Positions 15,595 to 31,204 of a DNA stretch of 31,464 nt are shown piece after piece. Made by a program: the position numbers and the translations under genes. The stretch comes from a virus, in the IMG/VR virus record IMGVR_UViG_3300034418_006921, positions 1-31,464 of that record; one strand, given 5' to 3'. How positions within the stretch are numbered: the stretch's first letter is position 1; every line of letters starts with the position of its first letter. The notes beneath the pieces were generated by a model. The model worked only from the letters and a program-made list of their open reading frames with translations. It was not told the DNA's origin and did not search any database.

Positions 15595-18500
15595 ATGCAT
15601 TATATCGTAGATAATAAAAAAATTACATTAAAAGAAGCGGAAGCTTTAGCTAATGAGTTTGGCACAACTGTTGAAGAATTAGCCTTATCAGGCGGATGGA
15701 AACAAGCAGAAGAGGGAAAGACAACGGTTCCAGAGGAAACGACTCCACCAACGGAACCAGTAAAAACAACGGCCGCTGGGGATTCCAGTTTGGCCGATAC
15801 TTCTTTGGAGTCACAAGAAATACCTGAGTTTGATCCAAAATCTTTAAAACCACCAAAAAAAGCACCTGAAGGTGATCCTTATATGGGATTTTACGCAGAC
15901 GGTACGGCTGCTTTTGATGATGGTATAGATATAAATAAAACTAAAATAGAAGAAGAGCCTAATCCTAGGTTAGATAGAATTGCTCAAAATATAGCAGAAT
16001 ACGCTAAAAAAAATAGCGGTGAAATGCCTTTCAGTATTGATGAAAAATACGGTACACGCGGGCAGTTTGGTGAATTTGAAAGTGCTACTTCAGATCCTTA
16101 TATGGGTCAAACTCAAATAAATCTCACTAGCGGAAAATCCATTATAGTACCCGCGGATCACACATATACTGTATTATCAGCAGACCCTAATAATATTCAA
16201 GAAAAAACAAATGATGACATTTACGGTGTAAAAAGCTGGGGCGGTACTCCAACTACTACAGAAGAGGATGTAAATTTTGAAATAGAAGAAGCAAAATTAA
16301 ACTTGCCTTCTAAAAGTCAATATATAGAATATAACGAAGAAGGGACCTACGATTTTATTGCTAAGTATTACGACGCTTCTCAGCTAGAAGCTATCGGTAT
16401 TAATCTTGTTGATTTCCAGGGTTGGCTAAACAAAAATGGGCTTGCTGAAGACTTTGAACAAGATGTAAAAGACGGTCTTTATAACGATGGGTTGTTCGCT
16501 CACGATTATTCTGACACAGAAAATGCTAGTGTAGCCTTAGAAGAGTTAAAGCAAAAAACACTTAGAGGTTTTTTAGACACATATATAGATTCTGATATTG
16601 AGCATACTTCTAAAAAGTCTTTTATAGATTTTTATAATAGCAATAAAGAAAAATTTAATGAATCTGTTGGTTTTGATGGGGCTTATAAACTTTATACAAA
16701 AATAAGTAATCGACCTGGTGAAAATTACATTTTAAATGCTGTTAAAGAATCTTATAAGCTTAATGAATTTGATGCATATAGAAAAGCTGCATTTCCCGCT
16801 GCTGTAAATGGTGACTTAAGAATTGAGCGCAAAATAGCAGAAGATTATGCTGAAAAACTAAACCGAAATGAATTCGAAAAATTTATAGACCCTTTTAAAC
16901 AAGGTGTTGTTGACGCTTTTATAGGTTTCGAAGGTGCAGGCTTAGAAAGTATAAGATATATACAAGATCGGGTAATGGATACTATAGGCGATTTTACAGG
17001 ATTAACTACAAATGTGTCCACCCGCAGAGATAGATTACTTTGGGATAAATATCAACAAGAACGCGTTAATAACCAATTAGGGTATATTTCTACAGATAAA
17101 GGAGATGTAGTTTATTATAAAGATAGAAAGTTTATTGTTCAAGACGACGGCCAAATATTTGACACTGAAGCCGGGCTAAATGTAACCTCTATTTTAGATT
17201 CTAAACAGCTAAAAGAAATAAATGATTTAGCTTTACAATCTACAGAAAGAGATTATGACATAAGCATTAGAGGAGGAATGGGAGCTGCCGGTGCTGTAAT
17301 TGGTAATATTGGTTGGCAAATATTGCTAACAAGAGCCACGGGACAGTTGCGAATGGCTGCTAGTGAAAAATATATAGCTTCTATTAATAATTTTAAAAAT
17401 GTTAAAAGCTTAAGAAAATACATGGCCGCTACGAACAAAGCGGGCAATAGAAGGGGTATGAATTGGAAAGGTATAAGCGCTGACACTTACGGCCAATTCG
17501 GTATTAAATTACCTTTTAATGCGGCTATGGTTGATGCTACAGTTTTTCAAACTTTTTATGGCGCTTCTATTGGGTATGAAAATACTTATTCGGCAGCTAG
17601 AAAAGCTGGATTGACGGATAAAGAAGCTGAAGCTTTAGCAATAGATGCCAGCCAGCAAATGGCTGTTTTATACGCAGCAACGGGTCCCATAAACCCGCGG
17701 ATTAAAGCCTTAAATAAATTAGATGATTTTTTAACAAAATCAAATGCTACAAACAGAGCTGTTGCTGATTTTATACGTTCTGATAAAAAGCTAGAAGCAT
17801 TTCGCAGCTCTTTAACAGCTAGTGTTGGTAAAGGGGCTAAGTTTATAAAAGATTTTTCTGGGGAAGGTGCAAAAGAAGTTGTACAAGAAAATATACAGCA
17901 AGCAGGAGAAACACTATTTGTTAACAAAAACATTAATCGATTAGCTAAAAAAGAAATATTAGACGCGGAATATAGTTTAAAAGATTTTATGGAAACTACC
18001 GCTCTTTCTTTTATAACTGCAGGTGCTATAGGTAGTGTAAATATTCGCAATATTGGCTATAAAGGCAATGAAGAAAAAAGATTTGAAAATCTTTATTTAA
18101 TGTCTCAAGATATTAAAAGCTCAAACGCGCTTCTTAACACAATGGTTGAAGCAGGTAGAATAACAAAAGAAGATGCTAAAACCTTAATATCTCAAGCAAA
18201 AGCTGTAGCTAATCAAGAAGTTAATATTCCAAAATGGATGCGAAACCAAGGTGTTGATGCTGTCGAAGTAGCTGTTCTCCTTGAAGAAAGAGCCCAGGCT
18301 GAAAAAGCTAAAAAGGGTAGTAACCCTGTTACCCATGGGCCTTTAGATGCTAAAATTGAAGAAATTGACGGCAAAATTGAAAACCTTATAAAAGATGCTG
18401 CTGCAAAACAAACGGAAAAAGAAGCTTCTATTGTACAACAAATACTTGGTGTTGATAAAGTAAAAGTATTTAATACCATAGAAGAAATGATTGAAGCGGG

Positions 18501-21500
18501 TATTGACAGCAAAATAGCTGAAAACGTTGATGGCTTTGTAGAAGTAGATGGTCAGATTTATATAAATTTAGAGGTTGCTTCAAAAAATTTAGCTATAAGC
18601 GTAGGTTCTCACGAATTACTACACCGCGTATTGTATGCTGAATTAAAATCAAACCCTAATAAAGAAGCTATAATTAATCAGCTTAGAGATGCAATAATCG
18701 CAGGTGGGAATATTGAAATTGAAAAAAGAATAAGAGCAGCCGTTAATTTTAGAAATAACGAATTAAAAAAATTACAAGATCAATATAAAAAAGGGGAAAT
18801 AACTAAAAAGCAATTTAATAAGCTAAAAAATAATATAGCTGGTTATGACATTGTTTTTAATGAAGACGGCACGGTGTCTGGTAAAGATATTGATGAATAC
18901 ATTACTGCTTTTTCTGACGCTTTAGCAAAAGAAGAAATTAGCATGTCTGAACCCCTTTTATTGGAAATTGGAAGATGGATTTCTACCCAGATTAAAGCTG
19001 CGCTTGGTATTGATAAGCAATTTGAAACAGGTGAAGATGTTTTAAAATTTGTTAAAGATTACCAAAAATCTATAAAAAGAGGTAAACTTAGTGGCGCAGC
19101 TAAACTAAAATTAAAAGCCTCTGAAAAAGTGCTTAGTGAACAAACGGATAGTGGTCAACCTGGGAAAAGATCGTTTTCGGTTAGCACCAAAAAAGAGCTT
19201 TTTAATGTAATTAAAGATGTTCAGCCTAAAAACGCTAAAACTAAGTCTGAATTTCAATCTGATCCCGGGTTTACGGATTTATACATGCTAATGCAACCTG
19301 GACAACCAGTACACAACTTTATAGTGAGCAAGTTTCCAGGTCAAACAGAAAAAGTTAGAGGTCTAATAGAGTCTTTAGAAGAACGCCTTATTAATTTTGA
19401 CCCTGAAAAGAAAAGAAAAGGGAGTAATGAAGTAATTGGCGCAGAAGGATTTGTGGAATTCCTTATGGCTAATATTAATTTTGCTGCACTTGACATCAAT
19501 AAAAAGCTAGCTACAGAAGCCGCTCGCGAAAAACAAACCACAAGCACAGATAACGAGGGGGCTAAACAAATTGCGGAAGACACTACTACAGATAGTAATC
19601 AAGTATCTGAAAAGCCTGAATACAAAAGCTTACTTAGAAGAAAAGTGGTTAGTGAAGATGTTGTAAAAGATATTGAGCAAAAAGTTCTTAGAATAGTTAC
19701 TCTTGTAAAATCACGTATAGACGCTAAAATAAGCAACAATGTTACCGTTACTCCTTTAATTAGGGAGATTAAAAAAGAAGCGGGTAAAATGGTTGACATT
19801 GACCTTAAAAAAGCAATGGGCGGCAAAAAAGATGGAGAGTTACGTAAATTTTTATTACGCAACAAAGCTGCTATTTTAGAAAACATGTCGACCACATGGT
19901 TAAGCCAAGCAATGCCTTTTGCTGTTCAAAAAAGAGTAGAGGGTGTATGGACATCTGACTGGAAAGGTAAAAAGATAGATAGAGAGGCAATGTCTACTGA
20001 TTTAGCTGGGCGCACGTCCGGTGCAGACATGGTTAGAAGGGTGCCTAAAATTGTTGGTGCAATATCTGATGCTGAATTTTTAGCAGCGGTAGTTGATTCT
20101 AAAGGTGCACCTTTAAGAGGTAAGAAAGAGTCTTTAGCTAAAGCTATAGCGGAAGAAATTACTTTTGATATTATTAAAAAGTCTTTTGACGAAAACGGTC
20201 CTATTGCACAGGCTATTATAGAAAACCAAAAACGTAGTGGTGTTGAAAATGCAGAAAGCATGGGGCCTGAGTTTAAAAGACAAGCTGAACGTGGAAATGT
20301 TAAGTTTTCTTTTAGTGCCGTCGATGAGCAAAGAACTGCGCTTATTGAATATTTTAGTTACGATAGAAATACAGATATAGGTAGATTTGGCAGGCAGCTG
20401 GTTTCAGATCAAAATATAGATGCGTTATTAAATGAATATGGATTAAAAGACAGATATGATTTATCTGATCCTAAACAATTTGAACAATATTTAAACGATA
20501 TTGAAACAATCTTAGTACCATTAATGCCTAAATGGTTTTGGTTGACACCAGGTACAAAATATAGCCCCTTGTTAAGTAATAAAAGAAGCTTAGGTAAAAC
20601 ATCTAAAAAACTAACTGACGCGGAATTTTCAGCGCTTCAGCAACAAGTAATAGATAAAATACAATCAATACCTGAATCTAAATTTGGCCCTCCTATAAAA
20701 GGTGTTGATATATCACGCCCTAAATTCCAAAGATTTACTAAAAAAGGTAATCTAGGGAAAAAACAAATATTTTTAACGGCAAAAAATATATTTTTAAGAG
20801 AAAACGCAGCGAAAGGAGCTACTGTAGAAGGTGACGTTTTAGCTTATAACCTATATGTAGAAGCTATACATGAAGCTATGTGGGAAAGAGCAGCTGAAGC
20901 TATAAAAAAAGATATTAATAGCGCAAGAGTTGTAGGTACGTTTATGTCTTTGTCAGTAAACGATGTAAACCACCCACATAGATTAGCTAGGATTGGCGCT
21001 TGGTCTAAAGATTTTGAAAGAAAAGATATAACGATAGAGCATGCAGTACCAAGCATGATAGTGGCTACCACTTTATTAAATAAAGCGTTAGCGGTACATC
21101 CAAGCAAAAAGAAAAACAAAAAGAAAAAACTACTAGCTGGCGCACGTGTTAATTTCAATACATTTTATAAAGCTGTTGCGGAAAACTACGTAGTAGTAGC
21201 ACTAAACAAAGCTGATGATAAAAAATCTAGCAAGTTTTTTAGATCAACATTACCAAAAGGATGGAACATATTAGAAGGTAATTGGTACGACAGATATTTT
21301 AACAGTGTAGTAAGTAAAGAAGATGGCGGTATAGATCCTAAGAGTCTTATATTACCATCAGGTAGATCTATAGCTGAAGTTACAGGTATAAGTAAAAACG
21401 GTAGCTATCGAGGTAACAAGCTTACTGAATTTATGAAAAAAAATAATCTTGACCTCTCTAGTTCTAAATCAGCTCAAGCTAAACAAGCTGTAATGTCCGA

Positions 21501-23655
21501 AGCTTTTGAAAAAGGCAAAAGAAAATATTCGGCAAGTTTTCCAGAACCATCAGCATTAAATGCTCAGTTTAACGCAATACTTAGAAGAAAGAGTGGTATT
21601 GACGGCAGAACAGAAATATCTAGGACTAGAGCTCAAATTTTAGGTAAAGATAAAGGTAGATTTAAATTCTTTATTGCGCCTGGCGCTGACGACTTTAGAG
21701 GCTTAGTACATTATGCTTTTGCAGGGCAAGGTAAGCAGGGGGAAAAAGATATGGAGTTCTTTGAAAAGAACCTTATGGACCCGTACTTTAGAGGTATTGC
21801 TGCTATAGACGCTATGCGACAACTTATTAAGAGAGAATTTAAAGTTGTTACTACAGAGTTTAAAGATGAATACAAAATGCTTGAGGAACCTGTACCTGGT
21901 ACCCCATTTACTTATGACCACGCGCTTCGCGTATATATGTGGGGTCTTGCGGGTACAGAGGTTCCGGGATTAAGTGATAAAGACAGAAACGATTTAGAAA
22001 ATGCTATTTTGGACAATCCAGCGCTTGCTGATTTTGCTGAAGCGTTACTTATTGTTGGTCGTCGTGAAGCATGGCCTAAACCTTCTGAGTTTTGGCTTGG
22101 TGATTCTGTATTGTCCGATCTTAACAGTATGACTGAAAAAGTCGGTCGTAAAGATATACTTGCACAGTTTATTACAAACGTAGATGCAATATTTGATGAG
22201 GCTGCACTTAATAAAGTTGAGGCTATTAAAGGTAGAAAGCATCGTGAAGCTCTTGAAGATTCGATATACGCTATGAAAAACGGTAGTAACCGTCCTTCAG
22301 GTGCTAATATTCAAACTAACAAATGGATTAATTGGATTAACGGTTCTACAGGAGCAATCATGTTCTTTAACCGTCGTTCAGCGTTATTACAGATGTTATC
22401 ATTTACCAACTTTATAAATTGGTCAGATAACAATCCTATAAAAGCTGCAGCAGCATTTGCAAACCAAAAACAATACTGGAAAGACTTCGTGTTTATATTT
22501 AACTCTGACAAGTTAAAAGAGCGTCGTGGTGGTTTGAAACAAGACGTTAGTGAATCTGAAATTGCTCAGGTAGCAGGTAGGTCTAAAAATAGCCCACAAG
22601 CTATCCTTGCTTACATGCTTAAAATAGGGTTTACGCCTACACAAATCGCAGATAGTATGGCTATTGCCACAGGTGGCGCTACTTTCTACCGCAACCGTAT
22701 AAATACATATTTAAAGCAGGGAATGTCGCAAAAGAAAGCTGAAGAAAAAGCATTTGAAGATTTTTCTAAAGCGTCGGACGTTGCACAGCAGTCTTCTGAC
22801 CCAGCATTAGTATCACAACAGCAAAGATCAATTTTAGGACGCTTTATATTAGCTTTTGCTAATACCCCTATGCAATACACTCGTTTGATGAAAAAAGCCG
22901 GTCAGGACCTTATAAATGGTCGTGGGGATGCTAAAGAGCATATAAGCAAGATTCTTTATTATGGATTTATACAGAACTTTATATTCTCTGCTTTGCAAAG
23001 CGCAATGTTTGGTTTATTCTTTGATGATGAAGAAGATGACGAAATACGTAAGAAAAATGCCGATAAGAAATTATTAAAAACAGTTAATAGTATGGTAGAT
23101 ACTATTCTTCGTGGTTCAGGCGTTTATGGTGCAATTGTTTCTACAATTAAAAATACTATTCAACAATATTATACTCAAGAAGGGAGAGGATTTATGGCTG
23201 ACCATGCTTATACTCTGCTAGCTGCATTTAATGCTTCCCCTCCAATAGGTTCTAAGTTTAGAAAACTATATAATGCAATTCAAACTAAGCGATTTGAAGA
23301 AGATGCTATTGCTGCAAGAGGTTGGGCAATTACTGCTAATGGCAGAGTTAACCTAGGGCCTAATTGGGCAATTTTAGGTAGTTTAGTGTCTGGTGTGGCA
23401 AACGTTCCTTTAGATCGTGTGTATGATGAAATAAATTCTATATCTGAAGCACTTGATGCTCGTAATAAAGCATGGCAGCGTATAGCATTAGCACTTGGTT
23501 GGAAAACCTGGGACGTAGGCGTTAAAAACGAAGAGCATGATTTAATAGAAACGTTAGCTAAAGAAAAGCGTAAAAAAGAAGGTATTGAAAAGCGCAAAGA
23601 AACTCTTCGTAAAAAGAAAAAACAAAAAGAAATTAAAGACGCATCAGATTTTTAA
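15595..23655 (+). CDS. Giant polyvalent-type virion protein with HELLH metallopeptidase motif
   Basis: A 2686-residue protein, by far the largest gene. It begins with a short helical module (residues 1-35) and a Pro/Thr/Glu-rich linker (about 40-95). A Gly/Ala-rich hydrophobic stretch lies near 559-585. Residues 1006-1010 read HELLH, a zinc-metallopeptidase signature preceded by a typical GQIYINLEVASKN strand; E1101 in DEYITAFSDAL is a plausible third ligand. Regions around 1429 (STTWLSQAMPFAVQK) and 2255-2500 (including NWSDNNPIKAAAAFANQ) recall large polyvalent-associated domains of marine phage ejection proteins. A hydrophobic segment at 2453-2476 is followed by an acidic DDEEDDE cluster, and the C-terminus is Lys-rich. 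Such proteins are packaged and injected with the DNA, where they protect or process the genome. Peptidase activity is inferred from the motif only. Confidence 0.8.
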   Translation: MHYIVDNKKITLKEAEALANEFGTTVEELALSGGWKQAEEGKTTVPEETTPPTEPVKTTAAGDSSLADTSLESQEIPEFDPKSLKPPKKAPEGDPYMGFYADGTAAFDDGIDINKTKIEEEPNPRLDRIAQNIAEYAKKNSGEMPFSIDEKYGTRGQFGEFESATSDPYMGQTQINLTSGKSIIVPADHTYTVLSADPNNIQEKTNDDIYGVKSWGGTPTTTEEDVNFEIEEAKLNLPSKSQYIEYNEEGTYDFIAKYYDASQLEAIGINLVDFQGWLNKNGLAEDFEQDVKDGLYNDGLFAHDYSDTENASVALEELKQKTLRGFLDTYIDSDIEHTSKKSFIDFYNSNKEKFNESVGFDGAYKLYTKISNRPGENYILNAVKESYKLNEFDAYRKAAFPAAVNGDLRIERKIAEDYAEKLNRNEFEKFIDPFKQGVVDAFIGFEGAGLESIRYIQDRVMDTIGDFTGLTTNVSTRRDRLLWDKYQQERVNNQLGYISTDKGDVVYYKDRKFIVQDDGQIFDTEAGLNVTSILDSKQLKEINDLALQSTERDYDISIRGGMGAAGAVIGNIGWQILLTRATGQLRMAASEKYIASINNFKNVKSLRKYMAATNKAGNRRGMNWKGISADTYGQFGIKLPFNAAMVDATVFQTFYGASIGYENTYSAARKAGLTDKEAEALAIDASQQMAVLYAATGPINPRIKALNKLDDFLTKSNATNRAVADFIRSDKKLEAFRSSLTASVGKGAKFIKDFSGEGAKEVVQENIQQAGETLFVNKNINRLAKKEILDAEYSLKDFMETTALSFITAGAIGSVNIRNIGYKGNEEKRFENLYLMSQDIKSSNALLNTMVEAGRITKEDAKTLISQAKAVANQEVNIPKWMRNQGVDAVEVAVLLEERAQAEKAKKGSNPVTHGPLDAKIEEIDGKIENLIKDAAAKQTEKEASIVQQILGVDKVKVFNTIEEMIEAGIDSKIAENVDGFVEVDGQIYINLEVASKNLAISVGSHELLHRVLYAELKSNPNKEAIINQLRDAIIAGGNIEIEKRIRAAVNFRNNELKKLQDQYKKGEITKKQFNKLKNNIAGYDIVFNEDGTVSGKDIDEYITAFSDALAKEEISMSEPLLLEIGRWISTQIKAALGIDKQFETGEDVLKFVKDYQKSIKRGKLSGAAKLKLKASEKVLSEQTDSGQPGKRSFSVSTKKELFNVIKDVQPKNAKTKSEFQSDPGFTDLYMLMQPGQPVHNFIVSKFPGQTEKVRGLIESLEERLINFDPEKKRKGSNEVIGAEGFVEFLMANINFAALDINKKLATEAAREKQTTSTDNEGAKQIAEDTTTDSNQVSEKPEYKSLLRRKVVSEDVVKDIEQKVLRIVTLVKSRIDAKISNNVTVTPLIREIKKEAGKMVDIDLKKAMGGKKDGELRKFLLRNKAAILENMSTTWLSQAMPFAVQKRVEGVWTSDWKGKKIDREAMSTDLAGRTSGADMVRRVPKIVGAISDAEFLAAVVDSKGAPLRGKKESLAKAIAEEITFDIIKKSFDENGPIAQAIIENQKRSGVENAESMGPEFKRQAERGNVKFSFSAVDEQRTALIEYFSYDRNTDIGRFGRQLVSDQNIDALLNEYGLKDRYDLSDPKQFEQYLNDIETILVPLMPKWFWLTPGTKYSPLLSNKRSLGKTSKKLTDAEFSALQQQVIDKIQSIPESKFGPPIKGVDISRPKFQRFTKKGNLGKKQIFLTAKNIFLRENAAKGATVEGDVLAYNLYVEAIHEAMWERAAEAIKKDINSARVVGTFMSLSVNDVNHPHRLARIGAWSKDFERKDITIEHAVPSMIVATTLLNKALAVHPSKKKNKKKKLLAGARVNFNTFYKAVAENYVVVALNKADDKKSSKFFRSTLPKGWNILEGNWYDRYFNSVVSKEDGGIDPKSLILPSGRSIAEVTGISKNGSYRGNKLTEFMKKNNLDLSSSKSAQAKQAVMSEAFEKGKRKYSASFPEPSALNAQFNAILRRKSGIDGRTEISRTRAQILGKDKGRFKFFIAPGADDFRGLVHYAFAGQGKQGEKDMEFFEKNLMDPYFRGIAAIDAMRQLIKREFKVVTTEFKDEYKMLEEPVPGTPFTYDHALRVYMWGLAGTEVPGLSDKDRNDLENAILDNPALADFAEALLIVGRREAWPKPSEFWLGDSVLSDLNSMTEKVGRKDILAQFITNVDAIFDEAALNKVEAIKGRKHREALEDSIYAMKNGSNRPSGANIQTNKWINWINGSTGAIMFFNRRSALLQMLSFTNFINWSDNNPIKAAAAFANQKQYWKDFVFIFNSDKLKERRGGLKQDVSESEIAQVAGRSKNSPQAILAYMLKIGFTPTQIADSMAIATGGATFYRNRINTYLKQGMSQKKAEEKAFEDFSKASDVAQQSSDPALVSQQQRSILGRFILAFANTPMQYTRLMKKAGQDLINGRGDAKEHISKILYYGFIQNFIFSALQSAMFGLFFDDEEDDEIRKKNADKKLLKTVNSMVDTILRGSGVYGAIVSTIKNTIQQYYTQEGRGFMADHAYTLLAAFNASPPIGSKFRKLYNAIQTKRFEEDAIAARGWAITANGRVNLGPNWAILGSLVSGVANVPLDRVYDEINSISEALDARNKAWQRIALALGWKTWDVGVKNEEHDLIETLAKEKRKKEGIEKRKETLRKKKKQKEIKDASDF

Positions 23656-23666
23656 AATAAAATAAA

Positions 23667-24140
23667 ATGAAATTAGAAGTATTACGATTTAGCAGCCAAG
23701 AAGACTCAACCAATGGAATATTATTTGACATTACAGACGACAAGCGAGAGTTCTTATGTTACACGCTTGAAGACGAACACAGGGACAATAAAAAATATGG
23801 TGAAACCAGAGTCCCTGCAGGAACATATAACATTACTCTCCGGACGGTGGGAGGATTTCATGGTAGATATTTAAAGAAGTATGGGGAGATGCACAAAGGA
23901 ATGCTTTGGGTACGTGATGTACCTAACTTTGAGTATATCCTTATTCACACTGGTAATACTGATGAACACACTGCTGGGTGTTTACTTCTTGGTGATACTC
24001 AACAAACAAATTTTGACTGGAGTGATGGATTCGTTGGTCGCTCTACTATTGCGTATAAAAGGGTATATCCGAAGATTGCTGCAGCGTTAGTGGCAGGTGA
24101 AGATGTAACTATTACATATACAGATTTTGACACAATATAA
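23667..24140 (+). CDS. DUF5675-like protein, candidate cell-wall enzyme
   Basis: A 157-residue protein that I recognise as DUF5675-like from CYTLEDEHRD (31-40), the RVPAGTYNI stretch (48-56) and the signature HTGNTDEHTAGCLLLG (94-109). The conserved H94 and C105 in an HxGN...GC arrangement resemble the active site of L,D-transpeptidase (YkuD) domains, which act on peptidoglycan cross-links. The enzymatic role is an inference, because the family is formally uncharacterised. No signal peptide is seen, so export would need a holin or another route. It sits after the last virion gene and 11 bases before a one-helix membrane protein, the usual arrangement of endolysin and holin. The 69-codon frame nested inside it is a shadow. 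Confidence 0.75.
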   Translation: MKLEVLRFSSQEDSTNGILFDITDDKREFLCYTLEDEHRDNKKYGETRVPAGTYNITLRTVGGFHGRYLKKYGEMHKGMLWVRDVPNFEYILIHTGNTDEHTAGCLLLGDTQQTNFDWSDGFVGRSTIAYKRVYPKIAAALVAGEDVTITYTDFDTI

Positions 24141-24151
24141 CTACATTTAAA

Positions 24152-24310
24152 ATGAACGAGCAAGATTTTAGATTAATGCTGTTAAACGTAACGGCTATGG
24201 GAATAAGCATGGCACAGGTAGAAACAATACTTAAAATATCTTTATTGCTCGTGTCTATCGGGTACACTGCGCAAAGGTGGTGGATATTGTATAAAAATAA
24301 AGGAAAATGA
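24152..24310 (+). CDS. 52-aa single-helix membrane protein, holin candidate
   Basis: A short gene reading from ATG at 24152 to TGA at 24308-24310, giving 52 residues. The start MNEQDFRLMLLNV is followed by one strongly hydrophobic helix around KISLLLVSIGYTAQRWWILY (28-47) and a short basic end, KNKGK. Tiny one-helix proteins with this VETILKI...LVSIGYT pattern are frequent next to lysis genes in marine phages, as I remember, and this topology fits a small holin or an antiholin. The stop overlaps the histidine kinase start as ATGA, linking its translation to the kinase. The gene fills exactly the space between the DUF5675-like gene and the kinase, with an A/T leader and no Shine-Dalgarno. Confidence 0.72.
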   Translation: MNEQDFRLMLLNVTAMGISMAQVETILKISLLLVSIGYTAQRWWILYKNKGK

Positions 24311-25539
24311 AGCTTTCAATAGCAGCCCAAATATCGCTCGCAATTGCAATAGCTATTATGGTGGCTTTCTTTAGTTACCAAACGGCTCTTGTAATTGGGT
24401 ATGCAGATTTAACAAATAAATCACCAATATACGGCTGGGTTGCTGTTGTTTCTTTTATGCCATTTTTCTTTTACGCTATTGTTGAGCTTATAAGAAAAGC
24501 TAGGTATAAGTTTCAAACTATAGATGATACATTGTCGGCTATTAACAGTTCAAACGCGTTAGTTGAATTTGAACCTGACGGTACTATATTATCATGTAAC
24601 GACATATTTTGTAAAGTAACAGGATATTCTGAAAAAGAACTTATAGGTAAGCACCATGAAATGTTTATGCCTAATGACACTAACTGGGAAAAGTACAGGG
24701 AGTTTTGGTGGCAATTAAAAAAAGGTAAAATAAAATCAGGTGAGTTTAAAAGAAAAAACAAATCTGGTAATGCAATATGGATATACGGTAATTACAACCC
24801 TATTAAAAACCCTTACGGTGAAGTATATCGTGTTTTAAAGATTGCATCAGATATTACTGATAAAAAGAAAATTGAAGCTGAGGTATCAAAGAAAAACGGC
24901 TATTTAGAGCATGCTGCAAAGATTCTAAGACACGATATGCATTCTGGTATAAATACATATATACCAAGAGGATTAAGCTCTTTAAAACGCAGATTATCAA
25001 AAGAGGAAATAGATAGATTAAAAATTACAGCACCTCTTAAAATGATACAAGAAGGTTTATTACATACACAAAAGGTATATAAAGGGGTAAAAGAATTTAC
25101 AAACTTAGTAAAAGAAAATACAGATTTAGAAACCGCAATGCTAGATATAAAAGAAGCACTGAAGAATTATTTGTCTTCAACTTCTTATGGTAAGCAGGTA
25201 AAAATAGATGATTTAGTTGAATCGAATATAAATGAAGCTTTGTTTTGTACGGCTATAGATAACCTAATTAGAAACGGTTTAAAGTATAATGACAGCGCAA
25301 CAAAGCATGTTCATGTTTACATGGAAGACGATAATATCCTTATAGTAGAGGACAACGGAGTGGGTATGAGTCAGGAAGATTTTGAAAAGCTTTCTGAACC
25401 CTACGCTAGAGGAAATAAAGACGAAACAGGTTCTGGATTAGGTTTAAATATATGCAATGCTATAATTGAAGAACACGGCTTTACTATTACATCGGAAAAA
25501 ATAGAAACAGGAACAAAAATTAGAATAAATTTAAAATGA
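24307..25539 (+). CDS. Membrane-anchored PAS-domain sensor histidine kinase, phage-encoded
   Basis: A 410-residue sensor kinase. Two hydrophobic helices (about 7-32 and 41-63) with a very short connecting loop anchor it in the inner membrane. A PAS/PAC domain follows (about 73-195, with FEPDGTILSCNDIFCKVTGYS). The dimerisation and phosphotransfer region has LRHDMHSGIN with H209 as probable phospho-acceptor; the usual Pro of the H-box is absent. The ATPase domain is intact: N-box DNLIRNGLKYN (D318, N319, N323), G1 DNGVGM (D349, G351, G353) and G2 GSGLGL (375-380). It would autophosphorylate and pass the phosphate to the receiver encoded next, whose start overlaps its stop by 4 bases. The PAS ligand is unknown. 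The 5' end overlaps a holin-like gene, so it belongs to the phage late operon rather than to host DNA. Confidence 0.93.
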   Translation: MKLSIAAQISLAIAIAIMVAFFSYQTALVIGYADLTNKSPIYGWVAVVSFMPFFFYAIVELIRKARYKFQTIDDTLSAINSSNALVEFEPDGTILSCNDIFCKVTGYSEKELIGKHHEMFMPNDTNWEKYREFWWQLKKGKIKSGEFKRKNKSGNAIWIYGNYNPIKNPYGEVYRVLKIASDITDKKKIEAEVSKKNGYLEHAAKILRHDMHSGINTYIPRGLSSLKRRLSKEEIDRLKITAPLKMIQEGLLHTQKVYKGVKEFTNLVKENTDLETAMLDIKEALKNYLSSTSYGKQVKIDDLVESNINEALFCTAIDNLIRNGLKYNDSATKHVHVYMEDDNILIVEDNGVGMSQEDFEKLSEPYARGNKDETGSGLGLNICNAIIEEHGFTITSEKIETGTKIRINLK

Positions 25540-25973
25540 TCGATTCAATATTATTAGTAGACGACGAGGATCTATTCCACTTAGTATTTGAAGATGCTTG
25601 CAGTCTTCTTGACATGACATTATCACTACAAGCGCTAAATTCTTCAGACGAAGCTGACCGCTTATTTAAAAAATGGTTTGTAGAAGGACCAATAAATGAG
25701 CGTCCAGAGTGTGTGTTTGTAGACCTTAATATTATAGGCTCTAGCTTTGACGGCATAGAGCTGATTAGAAAAATAAATACGGATTACGGCAATGGCGTAG
25801 TTATAGGAATTATATCATCTTCTGATGATAACCAAGAGATTGATAAAGCGAAAGCTGTAGGCGCACAGTTTTGGATTATTAAGTCTGATGAAATAGAACC
25901 AAGATTAGAAGAATTCTTAAAAGACTACGACAGCTATACTGCTAGAACAGCGCCGTTCAAAGTGTATAAATAA
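25536..25973 (+). CDS. Single-domain response regulator (receiver), partner of the phage kinase
   Basis: A 145-residue protein that is only a receiver domain. The acidic pocket is DDED (D9, D10), the phospho-acceptor is D63 in VFVDLNI, the Ser switch position is S94 or S95 in GIISSSDD, and the conserved Lys is K116 in WIIKSDE. All residues needed for phosphorylation are therefore present. There is no DNA-binding or enzymatic output domain; after the receiver there is only a short tail ending in APFKVYK. Such proteins act by binding partners, like CheY or Spo0F. It is coupled to the kinase by an ATGA overlap and to the next gene by TAATG, so its target may be the membrane proteins downstream or a host protein. 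Confidence 0.92.
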   Translation: MIDSILLVDDEDLFHLVFEDACSLLDMTLSLQALNSSDEADRLFKKWFVEGPINERPECVFVDLNIIGSSFDGIELIRKINTDYGNGVVIGIISSSDDNQEIDKAKAVGAQFWIIKSDEIEPRLEEFLKDYDSYTARTAPFKVYK

Positions 25974-26524
25974 TGGAAATATCTCAGCAGACTAGGGACT
26001 TACTTTTAAAGCTATCAAAAGAGAAGAAAGTATATTTAGAAGGTAATCTTCTAAAAGTACTTAAAGCTAAAAAAGAAGATACCGAGTTTGCAGAGTATTT
26101 AAGTTTTTGTAAAGAAAGAGATAAAGAAGCTCGTAAGAAAAGATTAGAGGTTACTAAGCAGGTGCAAAGCCAAAACAAAGAGCTTGAAGCTGCTGCAAAA
26201 GAAAACGAAAGCTTACTTATTGATTTACAAAATGCTGTAAAAGAAGCTGAACAACTTCGTGATGAAGCGGTTGAAGATCTTGATTTATTACAGAAACGCA
26301 CTCAGTTTGAGCTTATTGGTTTAATTGTTAAGGTTGCGCTTGTAATTATAATCGGTGTAGGCGTAACAACTACATTAATGTATACAATAGCGTTATTAGC
26401 TAATAAAGACACTACAATACTTGGTAATGCTTGGAGTAATCTGTTCGGTATATTATTAACAAACAGTTTCAGTATTATAGGAACTATAATGGGTGTAAAG
26501 TATGCAACAGAAAAATCAGAATAA
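25973..26524 (+). CDS. Coiled-coil membrane protein with two C-terminal helices
   Basis: A 183-residue protein of unknown function. Residues 48-108 are a long charged helix with heptad-like spacing, probably a coiled-coil. Two hydrophobic helices follow at about 113-142 and 156-175, with a short loop between them. Topology would put the long coiled-coil and the short C-terminus on the same side, probably the cytoplasm. It starts in the stop codon of the response regulator (TAATG) and its end overlaps the next gene by 23 bases. I recall related proteins in marine phages, where they are unnamed. A holin-like or signalling-output role is possible from context; the size is large for a holin. Confidence 0.7.
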   Translation: MEISQQTRDLLLKLSKEKKVYLEGNLLKVLKAKKEDTEFAEYLSFCKERDKEARKKRLEVTKQVQSQNKELEAAAKENESLLIDLQNAVKEAEQLRDEAVEDLDLLQKRTQFELIGLIVKVALVIIIGVGVTTTLMYTIALLANKDTTILGNAWSNLFGILLTNSFSIIGTIMGVKYATEKSE

Positions 26525-26822
26525 TTATGCAGATAGTATTAGAGCTTGGGCAAGTGCTTATAAAGACAGTGTAGTTGTAGATTATGACGCAACTCAAATG
26601 CGTTATATATATGTGCATAAAGACCATAAAGATAGCTGGAAAGGTGGTGTTGAAGACAAACAAGGCTTAGCTGCTACTGAATGGCAGTATTGGATGGTAC
26701 CTACATTTTTCGCTATAATGTTTGCGTTAATAATATTCGCTTTTATACTTTATAGAGATAATGACCGTGCATTAAAGCAAAAAAGAACCGATAAAATAAT
26801 GAGTTTTATAAAAAACAAATAG
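26502..26822 (+). CDS. Small single-helix membrane protein
   Basis: A 106-residue protein with a polar, Tyr/Asp/Lys-rich N-terminal part (1-60), one hydrophobic helix (about 63-84, with MVPTFFAIMFALIIFAF) and a basic tail ending in KIMSFIKNK. The positive tail suggests that the C-terminus stays in the cytoplasm and that the N-terminal 60 residues face the periplasm. It lacks a lipobox. It overlaps the preceding coiled-coil membrane gene by 23 bases in another frame, and the next gene begins 1 base after its stop. Membership in the same cluster suggests a membrane complex with that protein. An unusual spanin component is an alternative, but typical inner-membrane spanins have the helix at the N-terminus. 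Confidence 0.65.
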   Translation: MQQKNQNNYADSIRAWASAYKDSVVVDYDATQMRYIYVHKDHKDSWKGGVEDKQGLAATEWQYWMVPTFFAIMFALIIFAFILYRDNDRALKQKRTDKIMSFIKNK

Positions 26823-27051: not shown

Positions 27052-27332
27052 TGTATACGCAGTCAAACTCACCGTTTAAAAAAGTACGCAAGACTAAAGA
27101 AGGTGCTGCACTAAAGCGTTGGTTTAAAGAAAAATGGACCGACGAAAAGGGTAACCCTTGTGGTAGTGAAAAAAATAAGAATATTAAAAAGTGCCGCCCT
27201 AGTAAAAGAATAAACAGTAAAACTGTTAAGACTTGGGGTGAAATGAGTTCTGCTGAAAAGAAAAAAGCAGTAGCTGAAAAGAAAAGAGTTGGTATGGGTA
27301 AACGTGCCTCTAATATAAAAAGAAAGAAATAA
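27051..27332 (+). CDS. Small basic protein, MYTQ start, CRPSKR motif (possibly DUF5872-like)
   Basis: A 93-residue, Lys/Arg-rich protein. It has LKRWFKEKWTDEKGNPCG (21-38), a second Cys within KKCRPSKRINSKTVKTWGE (46-64) and a basic C-terminus. The WFxEKW, CG, CRPSKR and TWGE pieces match a small family that I remember from phages and giant viruses, possibly DUF5872, although I am not certain of the number. The two Cys could bind metal together with other residues, but no full zinc site is evident. The N-terminus MYTQSNSPFKK resembles that of the gene before it. TAATG overlaps on both sides tie it to the preceding gene and to the tail-fibre gene. A DNA-condensing or virion-packaged role is a guess. 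Confidence 0.72.
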   Translation: MYTQSNSPFKKVRKTKEGAALKRWFKEKWTDEKGNPCGSEKNKNIKKCRPSKRINSKTVKTWGEMSSAEKKKAVAEKKRVGMGKRASNIKRKK

Positions 27333-28189
27333 TGGCTAAAATTGAAAACTATTCTAACGATACAAATATTACTGATAACGACAGGCTATTTGGTACATCT
27401 GTAGATGGTGCAATCTCTACAACTGCAAACTTTAAAGCTAGTGAGTTAAAAACATTTATTAATACTGGTCAAGCTACAGAAGCATATGCAGACCAAGCTG
27501 AAGCTGATGCTAGAGCTTACACAGATACTAGAGAAACTGCTATTACTACAGCATATCAAACATATGCGGATCAAGCAGAAACTGACGCTATTACTAGTGC
27601 TAACGGTTACACAGACACTAGAGAAACTGCTATTACATCAGCCTATCAGGCATATGCGGATCAAGCAGAGGCTGATGCAAATACTTATACAAATAATAAA
27701 GTAGCTAATAATGCCACCGCAATATCTAATATTACCCATCAAGTAATTGCGGCTAGAGCAGTTGCAACATCAATAACAAATACGAGCGACCCATTTGTTA
27801 TAGATTTCGCTTCTACTGGTACAGATGCAAGTGTAAATACAATATTATATAATTCAAGTAATTCGGACGCATTATCTGTTTCTCCTGACGACGGCACTAT
27901 TACAAACACAAGTGTAAGTGCGGATGTAAATGTTAAAATAGCAATAACAGCTTTAACAACAACAACAGCTAGTGCTACAATTACTTACGGTATAGAAAGG
28001 GACAGCGGTGCAGGTTTTTCTAATATACAAGAGTTTAAAAGAGACAAATCAGGTCAAGGTGACCATGTGGATTCATTTTTTATCTATACCAAAATACCTA
28101 ACGATAATGCAATAAGATTTACTTTTAAAGCTGGTCACATAGGATCTACATTAAATGCAGGTTCTTGGATTGAAGTTACACGTATATAA
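27332..28189 (+). CDS. Tail-fibre or receptor-binding-like protein with stalk repeats
   Basis: A 285-residue protein and the last gene of the + strand module. Residues 1-45 form an N-terminal segment, with DTNITDNDRLFGTS, that resembles virion-attachment ends of phage fibres. Residues 51-125 contain repeats built on AYADQAEADA and YTDTRETAI, a pattern usual in trimeric fibre stalks. The remaining C-terminal part (about 140-285) is Thr/Ser-rich and strand-rich and ends in WIEVTRI, like a jelly-roll receptor-binding head. The function is inferred from architecture; no catalytic motif is visible. It starts in the stop codon of the preceding basic-protein gene and is followed by a strong terminator 2 bases after its stop. 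Confidence 0.68.
   Translation: MAKIENYSNDTNITDNDRLFGTSVDGAISTTANFKASELKTFINTGQATEAYADQAEADARAYTDTRETAITTAYQTYADQAETDAITSANGYTDTRETAITSAYQAYADQAEADANTYTNNKVANNATAISNITHQVIAARAVATSITNTSDPFVIDFASTGTDASVNTILYNSSNSDALSVSPDDGTITNTSVSADVNVKIAITALTTTTASATITYGIERDSGAGFSNIQEFKRDKSGQGDHVDSFFIYTKIPNDNAIRFTFKAGHIGSTLNAGSWIEVTRI
27482..27679 (+). repeat. Imperfect in-frame repeats of the fibre stalk
   Basis: Three copies of a YADQAExDA module begin at about 27485, 27563 and 27653 (26- and 30-codon spacing), with two copies of YTDTRETAI 90 bases apart. The copies diverge mostly at silent or conservative positions, so they are maintained as protein repeats. They make the stalk prone to length change by recombination. 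Confidence 0.85.
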
Positions 28190-28722: not shown

Positions 28723-28873
28723 ATTTTTCTATTTGTTCTATTAATTCTTTGTAGATTACTCTACCTCTCTGTCGCCAACTCCAGTCAACCCACTTCTTTA
28801 TTTGTCGCTCTGCGTACTTTTTCCTGGCCAAAGCTTTTGCTTTTCCAGAATCAGCTTGATAGTCTCGTCGCAT
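28709..28873 (-). CDS. Possible 54-aa basic protein overlapping the nuclease gene
   Basis: An open frame from ATG at 28873 to TAA at 28709-28711. It encodes a Lys/Arg-rich helical peptide with KKWVDWSWRQRGRVIYKELI near residues 26-45. Its 5' end overlaps the 3' end of the nuclease gene by 76 bases in another frame, unusually long for this genome. A start at an internal TTG (Leu15) would shorten the overlap. It fills a space otherwise without a gene, and its sequence looks protein-like, with three Trp. Moderate confidence only. Confidence 0.45.
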   Translation of the reverse strand: MRRDYQADSGKAKALARKKYAERQIKKWVDWSWRQRGRVIYKELIEQIEKYERK

Positions 28874-29307
28874 TGTTTCTGATTTTGTGGTTTGTATAAA
28901 GTGAATGGTTCAAGTTTATTTTCAGCTATGTATTTTTTAAACAACTTCCATCGCATTGGGAATGCTTCATTAGCTCTACCCTTACATTCTATAATAAAAT
29001 GCTTGCCTACAAAGTCGGGGGTGTATTTAATATTAAGGATTTTTTTATTTCCTCTATTACAATATTCGCCTTTACCGTTTGCCTGGCATTCGTAACTTTC
29101 AAAGGGAAGTTCAAACGATGATTGGAGTTCAAATGTTTCTCCTTCATATATAGCTGGAATTTTAGCCTTCTTTAAGGCAACATACATATATTTCTCAAGA
29201 CCTGAAGCAAAATCTATACCGTCAAGCGATACTTTCTTTGACCTTACGGGACCTCTTTTCTTACTGTACTTTTTTCTAGTATTAGTCCTCGCTCCTCTCT
29301 GTTTCAT
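28798..29307 (-). CDS. PD-(D/E)XK nuclease-like protein
   Basis: A 169-residue protein when started at the ATG at 29307, preferred because it has an A-rich leader and a shorter overlap (26 bases) with the upstream gene; an upstream Met at 29343 gives 181 residues. The N-terminus is very basic. The core reads DFASGLEKYMYVALKKAKI (E38), then YTPDFV (D98) and IIECKGR (E107 and K109), the order of a PD-(D/E)XK nuclease active site, similar to DUF1064 or T7 endonuclease I-type folds. A Cys pair at about 74 and 83 is of unknown use. Such enzymes resolve branched phage DNA or degrade host DNA. It lies in the nucleotide/DNA metabolism operon. Confidence 0.78.
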   Translation of the reverse strand: MKQRGARTNTRKKYSKKRGPVRSKKVSLDGIDFASGLEKYMYVALKKAKIPAIYEGETFELQSSFELPFESYECQANGKGEYCNRGNKKILNIKYTPDFVGKHFIIECKGRANEAFPMRWKLFKKYIAENKLEPFTLYKPQNQKQCDETIKLILEKQKLWPGKSTQSDK

Positions 29308-29527
29308 ATTTTTCTTTAGCTTTTTGTAAATACAAAACAGCATCCATTAGTTCTTCTTGAAGGTGGTTAAGCCATTCAAGCATTTCACTTGGGTCGTCTT
29401 CAAGTGTAACACCGTATTTTTTATAGCCGACATTTGAGCGGCCGACAAACTTCTGACATACGCGACGCACTACAGGGTCACGAAATTGCATTGGTACGAT
29501 AGTATCGTGTGATTCTATTGGTTTCAT
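29282..29527 (-). CDS. Small MazG-like protein
   Basis: An 81-residue, mostly helical protein. The segment VGYKKYGVTLE (33-43) and EWLNHLQEELMDAVLYLQKA (51-70) contain EExxD (E58, E59, D62), the metal-binding pattern of the all-alpha NTP pyrophosphohydrolase superfamily, to which MazG and dimeric dUTPases belong. This size is at the minimal end, so it could be a truncated catalytic subunit or a degenerate relative. I recall similar proteins in many phages. Its start overlaps the stop of the upstream GIY-YIG/MazG gene as ATGA. A role in NTP pool cleaning beside thymidylate synthase is reasonable but not proven. Confidence 0.62.
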   Translation of the reverse strand: MKPIESHDTIVPMQFRDPVVRRVCQKFVGRSNVGYKKYGVTLEDDPSEMLEWLNHLQEELMDAVLYLQKAKEKYETERSED

Positions 29528-30375
29528 AGGCTTTGACTTTTTCTTTGAATGTATTGCCCAAATGAGCTATCAGGATGGTATTCTTCTTTTTGTACTTCTT
29601 CTTTAACGAAAGTACCGTTAGTCATTGTGCCTTGTCGGTTTTTAATTTGATTGTAAGCACTGTCAATACATTCTTCAATCTTATGTCCACCAAGGTGAGC
29701 TAAGTTAGTTAGTACAACAACGCAATCACCAATAGCATCGACAAATTCAATTTCATCGTTTTCTAAAACAGCTTTAGCTAATTCACCAACTTCTTCTACG
29801 AGCTTTGAAAATTGCGTTTTAACGTCGCCTTTTTCATAAATACCACGTTCGCTTGCCCACTTACGTATAAGATCAAACTTATCGTGGTTTTGTAGACCTG
29901 GTATTTCCATCTGTGTAGTCCCATAGAGCTCATCTAAGAACATTTTAAAGGCTTTGTTATAGATATATACTCTTGTCTCACGATAAGTCGATACAACAGC
30001 ATTTTTTAATATCCATGGGATTGTTTCTTCAGTAATTGAAAATTGCCAACCTTGAGGCGTTTCCCATTCAGCACCTAAGTTCTCTCTCAAAAAGATAGAC
30101 AGTTTAGCTTTAGTAGTTGGAAATGTAGTAGTCTGTTCTGTAGGGTTTAAATTCATTTTTTTTCGGTTTACATAGTGTTTATAAAGTGTACGGTCAGTGG
30201 GGTATCCATAAGAATTTTGAAGTTCTATCTCTAGCCTTGATACTTCATCAATATCTTCACTTTCAAATAGAACTTCGTATTCGCCTTCAGCATAACCTTG
30301 TTGCTGAGTAACTCTCTTATTAAGATTACGTGTAACCCCTATTTTTTTACCTGGAATGTGATAAATATAATACAT
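29524..30375 (-). CDS. Fusion of a GIY-YIG-like module and a MazG domain
   Basis: A 283-residue protein of three parts. Residues 1-60 resemble a small GIY-YIG module, with YYIYHIPGKKIGVTRNLNKR and a downstream Glu in LEIELQ; the canonical GIY and YIG strands are degenerate, so nuclease activity is doubtful. The middle (about 80-160) is not recognised. Residues 165-250 are a MazG-type nucleotide pyrophosphohydrolase: KLVEEVGELAKA gives E194, E195 and E198, and FVDAIGDCVV gives D213 and D217, the complete metal-binding set. MazG-type enzymes hydrolyse NTPs or dNTPs, and in phages have been linked to nucleotide pool or alarmone control. It lies 7 bases after thymidylate synthase and overlaps the next gene by 4 bases. 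Confidence 0.75.
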   Translation of the reverse strand: MYYIYHIPGKKIGVTRNLNKRVTQQQGYAEGEYEVLFESEDIDEVSRLEIELQNSYGYPTDRTLYKHYVNRKKMNLNPTEQTTTFPTTKAKLSIFLRENLGAEWETPQGWQFSITEETIPWILKNAVVSTYRETRVYIYNKAFKMFLDELYGTTQMEIPGLQNHDKFDLIRKWASERGIYEKGDVKTQFSKLVEEVGELAKAVLENDEIEFVDAIGDCVVVLTNLAHLGGHKIEECIDSAYNQIKNRQGTMTNGTFVKEEVQKEEYHPDSSFGQYIQRKSQSL

Positions 30376-30382
30376 ATTTTTT

Positions 30383-31204
30383 TTAATTGCCGACAGATAA
30401 TGGTGCTGGTATCGCCGGTGACGGGTTATAATTAAGTACGGCTAAGTTATTTAGCTTGGGAATGAACAACTTACCATTTACATATCGTAAACTTTCATTC
30501 ATAACAAGCTTTGGAAACTTATAAGTTTTAGTTCTTTTTAAATATTCTTTTGCTTGTTTCATGTGGTTGGAATACAAATGGCAATCACCAAGCTGTCCTA
30601 TTAACTCGCCTGGTTCAAGGTCCGCCCCCTTAGCCAACATCTCTAATAAAGCACCATACATTGCAATGTCATATGGTAATCCTAAGAATACATCAGCGGA
30701 ACGTTGCTGCCACATAAGTGATAGCTTACCTTCATTTATGTAAACCTGAAAACCATAATGACACGGTGGTAAAACCATATCAGGAATGTCTGCAGGGTTC
30801 CATGCACTAACCATCAATCTACGAGAGGTTGGGTTGCTCTTTATATCAGCAACTAAGTTTGCTAATTGGTCAACACCATTAAACGATCGCCATTGATGGC
30901 CATACACTGGACCTAGATTGCCATCCGTACGTCCTGAACGTTTATAATCTGCATCCCAATACTTTACACCATTATTATGTAGGTACTGCAAATCGGTACG
31001 TCCGTTTAAAATCCATAATAGCTCTACCAGAGCATGGTTATGATATATACGCTTGCCGCTAAGAAGAGGATACCCGTGCTGCATGCCATGAGTAATAGTA
31101 CGCCCAAAAACAGAGCGTGTTCCAGTTCCTGTGCGGTCAGCCTTCTCAGGCGCTTCCAAAATCTCTTCAATAAGTTTTTCATATTCTGTTTCTATGTTTT
31201 TCAT
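30383..31204 (-). CDS. thyA: Thymidylate synthase
   Basis: A 273-residue protein of the usual ThyA length. It converts dUMP to dTMP with methylene-tetrahydrofolate, supplying dTTP for phage replication. Visible signatures are RTGTGT (24-29), the NLGPVYGHQWR segment (96-106), SRRLMVSAWNPADIPDM, the catalytic Cys C148 in LPPCHYGFQVY, the substrate-binding run MWQQRSADVFLGLPYDIA, and GDCHLYSNHM. The C-terminus NPSPAIPAPLSV matches the closing loop of the family. All catalytic elements appear intact. It overlaps the upstream small gene by 26 bases and is followed by the MazG fusion gene. Confidence 0.97.
   Translation of the reverse strand: MKNIETEYEKLIEEILEAPEKADRTGTGTRSVFGRTITHGMQHGYPLLSGKRIYHNHALVELLWILNGRTDLQYLHNNGVKYWDADYKRSGRTDGNLGPVYGHQWRSFNGVDQLANLVADIKSNPTSRRLMVSAWNPADIPDMVLPPCHYGFQVYINEGKLSLMWQQRSADVFLGLPYDIAMYGALLEMLAKGADLEPGELIGQLGDCHLYSNHMKQAKEYLKRTKTYKFPKLVMNESLRYVNGKLFIPKLNNLAVLNYNPSPAIPAPLSVGN

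Follow-up and report, generated by a model that had tools for sequence, protein, structure and literature searches.

Gene content of the locus

The stretch of DNA analysed here (the window) is a virus record of 31,464 bases whose terminase, portal and head genes are of podovirus type. Its late operon contains a run of three overlapping genes, encoding a sensor histidine kinase (HK), a response regulator (RR) and a membrane protein that we call c2 (Table 1). The same arrangement of genes around this module is found in L055, a contig from another sample. The two overlapping open reading frames for kinase and receiver are present exactly as the original prediction described them. It had also taken the pair to be fused to its neighbours through overlapping codons; the codons do overlap (ATGA at 24307, ATGA at 25536 and TAATG at 25973), but the genes are not fused.

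Table 1. Features of the module and of the genes next to it in the window
Feature	Position	Strand	Basis
DUF5675 protein, HTGN..(T)AGC motif resembling L,D-transpeptidases; neighbour	23667..24140	+	PF18925 8.4e-27
52-aa protein, one hydrophobic segment, weakly holin-like, directly 5' of HK	24152..24310	+	phrog_920 holin E 0.035
PAS sensor histidine kinase (HK) of 410 aa, with two membrane helices, a DHp region bearing H209 and a CA domain	24307..25539	+	Pfam, AF2, Foldseek
HK residues 5-82: pair of membrane helices joined by a short loop; predicted topology	24319..24552	+	Hydropathy, model
PAS domain, HK residues 84-182	24556..24852	+	Pfam, Foldseek
Codon of phospho-accepting H209, motif YLEHAAKILRHDMHSGINTYIPRGL	24931..24933	+	H209 in 275/275 HKs
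CA (ATP-binding) domain, HK residues 277-408, N, G1 and G2 boxes	25135..25530	+	Pfam, alignment, model
Response regulator (RR) of 145 aa, receiver domain only	25536..25973	+	Response_reg 2.3e-7
Codon of phospho-accepting D63	25722..25724	+	Invariant in 271/271 RRs
c2, 183 aa, proposed membrane output protein	25973..26524	+	AF2, hydropathy, linkage
c2 second-membrane-helix signature GI-LTN-FSI-GTI-G-K, residues 159-176	26447..26500	+	88 diverse c2 sequences
106-aa protein, one hydrophobic segment, overlaps c2; neighbour	26502..26822	+	Cluster c8; cluster 4

The kinase and the receiver

Pfam identified HATPase_c (1.5e-17) and PAS_3 (2.9e-13) domains in HK and gave no match to HisKA. The AF2 model of the protein (pLDDT 83.6) comprises two membrane helices, the PAS domain, a helical DHp region and the CA domain, and Foldseek matched it to PAS/LOV histidine kinases and to the DHp-CA part of HK853 from the HK853-RR468 complex. 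Hydropathy peaks at residues 3-21 and 41-59, and the model places helices at 5-30 and 39-82. Among the solved PAS domains nearest to that of HK are those of MmoS (3ewk), Aer (8dik) and NifL (2gj3). Nearly all positions of the motif around H209 are invariant in the kinase alignment (A1), and N319/N323 and the glycines of G1 and G2 are, like H209, present in HK and invariant or nearly so across the 275 HKs, so that the phospho-accepting histidine and the three boxes of a two-component kinase are found throughout this set.

Response_reg is the sole domain found in RR, and the Pfam search returned nothing C-terminal of the receiver; with a length of 143-147 aa as a rule, the protein is a single-domain response regulator. 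The aspartate triad and the lysine expected of a receiver (D9, D10, D63 and K116) occur in all 271 RRs, and S94-S96 are present and invariant or nearly so. The claim that a PAS kinase and a receiver with intact catalytic residues lie at this locus is thus borne out by Pfam, by Foldseek and by both alignments, in which no catalytic decay was seen.

Conservation was 70% for HK and 62% for c2, with RR at a mean column identity of 86% (19 non-redundant sequences), and dN/dS against the close relative L055 was 0.115, 0.044 and 0.017 for HK, c2 and RR, respectively. The profile E-values, the dN/dS range of 0.017-0.115 and the invariant residues rule out chance or decayed open reading frames. Judging from these sequences, HK and RR very probably encode a working two-component system.

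The input side of the module varies. Across loci HK is 244-718 aa long, and its front ends range from two membrane helices only (minimal, 293 aa) through PAS to multi-PAS/GAF-like arrangements (717 aa) and forms without a membrane helix. Some loci have two HKs, and at L178, L181, L185, L196, L199, L204, L217, L236, L238 and L239 two of them in a row precede one RR and c2; two HKs in a row were also seen at L312-L314, L319, L323 and L343. Some of the second HKs combine an N-terminal hydrophobic segment with a long coiled coil predicted to be extracytoplasmic, and others begin with an MRAKKGEWFSL domain.

The third gene

In the AF2 model of c2 (pLDDT 88) a helical head (residues 1-36) is followed by a long helix (37-142) that enters the membrane as helix 1 and by a second membrane helix (148-181); hydropathy peaks at 114-132 and 157-175. 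The protein is roughly 180-220 aa long across the family, with head and membrane part retained. Twelve positions of the second helix (I160, L162, T163, N164, F166, S167, I168, G170, T171, I172, G174 and K176) are invariant among 88 diverse c2 sequences, and an RxxRL..TK.VQ.QN stretch of the long helix is strongly conserved. Pfam, PHROG and NCBIfam gave no match of c2 to a known holin or effector family, and its model had no fold match in the PDB. Considered as a possible holin, c2 is a small protein with two predicted membrane helices, and lysis genes lie near it in 39 of 87 lineages only (see below).

Linkage of the three genes across viral contigs

Wherever the DNA was long enough, the order HK-RR-c2 was found, in 251 distinct contigs, which rules out an assembly artefact. 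All but one come from the virus collection; the exception (L084) comes from a metagenome-assembled bin and, on our reading of its genes, carries PhoH-like and terminase-like phage genes. The commonest gaps between genes of the module are -4 and -1. Each scan kept the best loci only, and exceptions to the trio are possible among more distant ones; within these loci, counted over unique contigs, HK was accompanied by RR and RR by HK in 236/236 cases each, as is expected of the paired genes of a two-component system, RR by c2 in 228/228 and c2 by RR in 227/227. Scans with c2, a divergent RR, a divergent HK or a cellular RR all gave the same trio: the cellular RR as query recovered HK beside RR in 77/77 cases and c2 beside RR in 79/79, and divergent c2 queries yielded no additional c2 lacking an RR. 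Records that host the module reach several hundred kb, and a Terminase_6N match exceeded the cut-off in 16 of 49 long ones.

The downstream membrane gene had been regarded as adjacent to the pair. It does overlap RR, but it is no mere neighbour, since the linkage of RR to c2 places it in the unit. The combination of a variable HK with a constant RR and c2 fits what would be expected of a sensing module with variable input and fixed output. We conclude that HK-RR-c2 is a three-gene signalling unit owned by the phage, and the constant presence of a third, membrane-protein gene beside the pair suggests that these phages monitor some feature of the infected cell and use it to switch an event at the membrane, lysis being one possibility.

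Complete kinase-regulator pairs had been presumed rare in phages. This is true of cultured ones, as neither RR nor c2 had a relative in 50,697 cultured-phage records, where HK gave only weak kinase-domain matches; viral contigs, however, contain at least 592 relatives of HK. The HK-RR-c2 family is therefore large, with hundreds of uncultured tailed phages, yet absent as RR or c2 from the cultured-phage collection.

Cellular relatives and origin

Cellular homologues of the pair were found in two contigs, L082 and L083. The former belongs to a Bacteroidetes metagenome-assembled genome and has cell-type flanking genes; kinase and receiver are followed there by a 349-aa protein with the c2 head at its start, matching c2 positions 2-109 of the profile (E 8e-23), and HisKA and HATPase at its end. 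This fusion of a c2 head to a second histidine kinase, beside a homologous kinase and receiver (L082:8041-9090), may be a host version of the module. A further hit from the genome scan, L085, proved spurious (33% over 52 residues).

Among 395 Bacteroidota genomes the RR profile reached only the seed genome, and a simple host fragment is accordingly rejected; the c2 profile reached the seed genome and one weak coiled-coil-type match. Identity of RR to either cellular copy does not exceed 75%. In the tree these copies pair on long branches next to viral sequences, and only midpoint rooting puts them inside the viral diversity, where their neighbours vary. Their distance excludes a very recent acquisition of the pair from them. 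The pair is integrated in a phage late operon and kept in other phages, as the original prediction held, and the module family is, as far as sampled, mainly viral.

The portal of the window shares 44-54% identity with the portals of Caudoviricetes sp. MW202828, Maribacter phage Panino and Flavobacterium elemo phages, and this resemblance makes a Bacteroidota host likely; the uncultured tailed phages that bear the module are probably phages of Bacteroidota. Absence of the pair from related phages, together with decay of its catalytic residues, had been named as evidence against a viral role. The first was found, in that these finished relatives share structural genes with the window phage and have no HK-RR pair; of the second no instance was seen. 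Since finished relatives do without the pair, we regard the module as an accessory cassette in this phage lineage.

Lysis genes near the module

Placement in the lysis region had been the basis for proposing that the virus adjusts lysis or host signalling. In the window, lysis genes do lie near the module. The DUF5675 protein, which by tblastn matches a phage gene annotated as L,D-carboxypeptidase/transpeptidase, is likely a peptidoglycan enzyme of the lysis region. The gene directly upstream of HK, described earlier as holin-like, does encode a hydrophobic protein, but its match to a holin family is weak; relatives of it lie directly 5' of HK in 17 loci and are absent from some others. In 34 loci a relative of the 106-aa protein (cluster c8) is encoded at position +2 relative to RR, thus after c2 in part of the family.

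Across the family, endolysin or holin families of several unrelated kinds lie within six genes of the module in 126 of 247 loci, corresponding to 39 of 87 non-redundant lineages (~45%), and more than half of the lineages have no recognised lysis gene near it. When randomly drawn near neighbours were compared with distant genes, endolysin PHROG matches numbered at least 8/85 near the module and 1/85 at a distance (p 0.017); this is the only fair test, because two other families had been chosen for their nearness in some loci, and its result is modest. Distances computed from locus ranges in the long records place the holin family no more than 2 kb from the module in 5 of the 6 that possess it; for the c7 endolysin and a limit of 5 kb the figure is 6 of 10, and for Amidase_2 in large phages, with the same limit, 1 of 12. 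With these amidases mostly far from the module, a universal lysis link is rejected, and control of lysis by the module is a tentative proposal, the leading guess about its role, although the balance lies slightly against it.

The protein encoded at 23667-24140 of the window and cluster c7 (e.g. L205:2864-3472) represent two endolysin-like families that are unrelated to each other and lie close to the module; both have a GC motif resembling L,D-transpeptidases, HTGN..AGC and SEGCQVF, respectively. Another frequent neighbour (cluster c3, e.g. L062:1336-1536) is a membrane protein of 66 aa that contains a GFCPS motif and is encoded directly 5' of the kinase in about 87 loci.

Proposed mechanism and alternatives

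We propose that HK, held by its two membrane helices, senses the state of the cell through its cytoplasmic PAS domain, and redox or energy state would be our guess from the PAS relatives. HK would autophosphorylate on H209 and pass the phosphate to D63 of RR, and RR~P, which has no DNA-binding or enzyme part, would bind c2 at its head and coiled coil. The case for this contact comes from the gene linkage and from one cellular fusion in a metagenome-assembled genome: because L082 carries the c2 head as the input part of a second kinase beside the same receiver, we take the head to be the receiver-responsive part. Most simply, RR~P would act on the c2 head in both settings, steering a kinase in cells and two membrane helices in phages, and c2 is probably the output of the two-component system. 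From the head, the signal would travel along the continuous helix of c2 into the two membrane helices and alter a membrane event. In the window phage this event would most likely be lysis timing, given that its late operon also encodes a peptidoglycan enzyme and a holin-like protein. The whole chain, in which HK acts through RR~P and c2 on an event at the membrane, perhaps the timing of lysis, has in our judgement an even chance of being right. We would put somewhat less trust in its wider form, in which a phosphorelay widespread among phages gates the two-helix c2 and interchangeable sensor domains let phages of many lineages set the moment of lysis, or of some other event at the membrane, by a signal from the environment or the infection.

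The module may instead serve in superinfection or competition control: the kinase would respond to a second infection or to stress on the membrane, and RR~P would make c2 seal, depolarise or permeabilise that membrane, so that rivals are excluded or killed and the phage's own lysis is not what is timed. A two-helix membrane protein under strong constraint would suit such a role, as would the autonomy of the module, which in many large phages lies away from lysis genes; against this, lysis-gene neighbours recur in smaller phages, and no significant match to a PADLOC defence family was obtained. The best match, at E 0.005, was of coiled-coil type, and a known anti-phage defence system is rejected. 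We consider superinfection control rather unlikely, and still less probable is a rewiring of the host, in which HK and RR act mainly on host partners (by cross-talk, as a phosphate sink or on chemotaxis-like targets), with c2 doing no more than tethering RR to the membrane. That RR is far more conserved than HK or c2, as if it touched several partners, and that protein contact is a frequent mode of single-domain receivers agree with this idea; however, c2 is missing from 0/228 RR loci, its membrane helices and not the head alone are nearly invariant, and the pair very rarely occurs in hosts (1/395 Bacteroidota genomes, the seed).

The existence of cellular homologues, and of close finished relatives of the window phage without the pair, could also point to a captured host pair with no phage-specific role, that is, baggage or misassembly. 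The 251 independent contigs, the invariant catalytic residues, the low dN/dS and the recurrence of the arrangement in L055 argue against it, and we regard it as highly improbable.

Relation to known systems

With the preferred reading, a phosphorelay from HK through RR to c2, the module resembles classical two-component systems with a HisKA-type PAS kinase and a receiver, such as HK853-RR468, in its H-box, its N, G1 and G2 boxes, the Asp and Lys residues of the receiver and the adjacent, overlapping genes. It differs from them in being phage-encoded, in a receiver without an output domain and in a constant third gene for a membrane protein. DivK of Caulobacter, a receiver without output domain, is reported to act on DivL/CckA by protein contact (PMC4505887; PMC9430884). 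RR likewise has no output domain, and L082 has a kinase, a receiver and a second kinase with a c2 head, whereas in the phage module two membrane helices take the place of the second kinase, and the proposed contact is between RR and c2.

If a role in lysis is true, the module would resemble T4 lysis inhibition, in which the phage is reported to sense the state of infection and to alter the timing of lysis through the periplasmic antiholin RI and the holin T (PMC11413866; PMC8385771): in both, membrane proteins would change lysis timing according to infection state. No phosphorelay is described for T4 there, and a periplasmic antiholin is unlike the HK-RR-c2 design. Signalling domains have been reported from other phages. 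Clostridioides phage phiCDHM1 shares with the module a phage-borne histidine-kinase homologue, which is AgrC-like, but no response regulator was found, and the kinase is reported as probably feeding into a response of the host (PMC3901668). A histidine kinase precedes curli genes in uncultivated pelagiphages (PMC9599517), and the jumbo-phage receiver cREC is reported never to occur together with histidine kinases (PMC7824862); both share with the module two-component-type domains in a phage genome. Searches of open-access text yielded no phage kinase-receiver pair, no receiver-gated membrane protein and no account of the HK-RR-c2 family. If the proposed mechanism is true, tailed phages own a complete phosphorelay with a membrane-protein output, a two-component route whose point of action is the membrane and not DNA, and environmental sensing by phages, e.g. 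of when to lyse, would become directly testable.

Other features of the window

Directly 5' of the lysis region, a single giant open reading frame of 2686 aa spans 15595-23655 and has a 2707-aa relative in L055. On the other side of the module, the protein encoded at 27332-28189 contains tandem AYADQAEADA..YTDTRETAITTA repeats and is perhaps a tail or fibre protein. Further downstream, reading of the translations on the minus strand points to a nuclease-like protein (28798-29343), a protein with a GIY-YIG-like start and a MazG-like end (29524-30375) and a thymidylate synthase (30383-31204).
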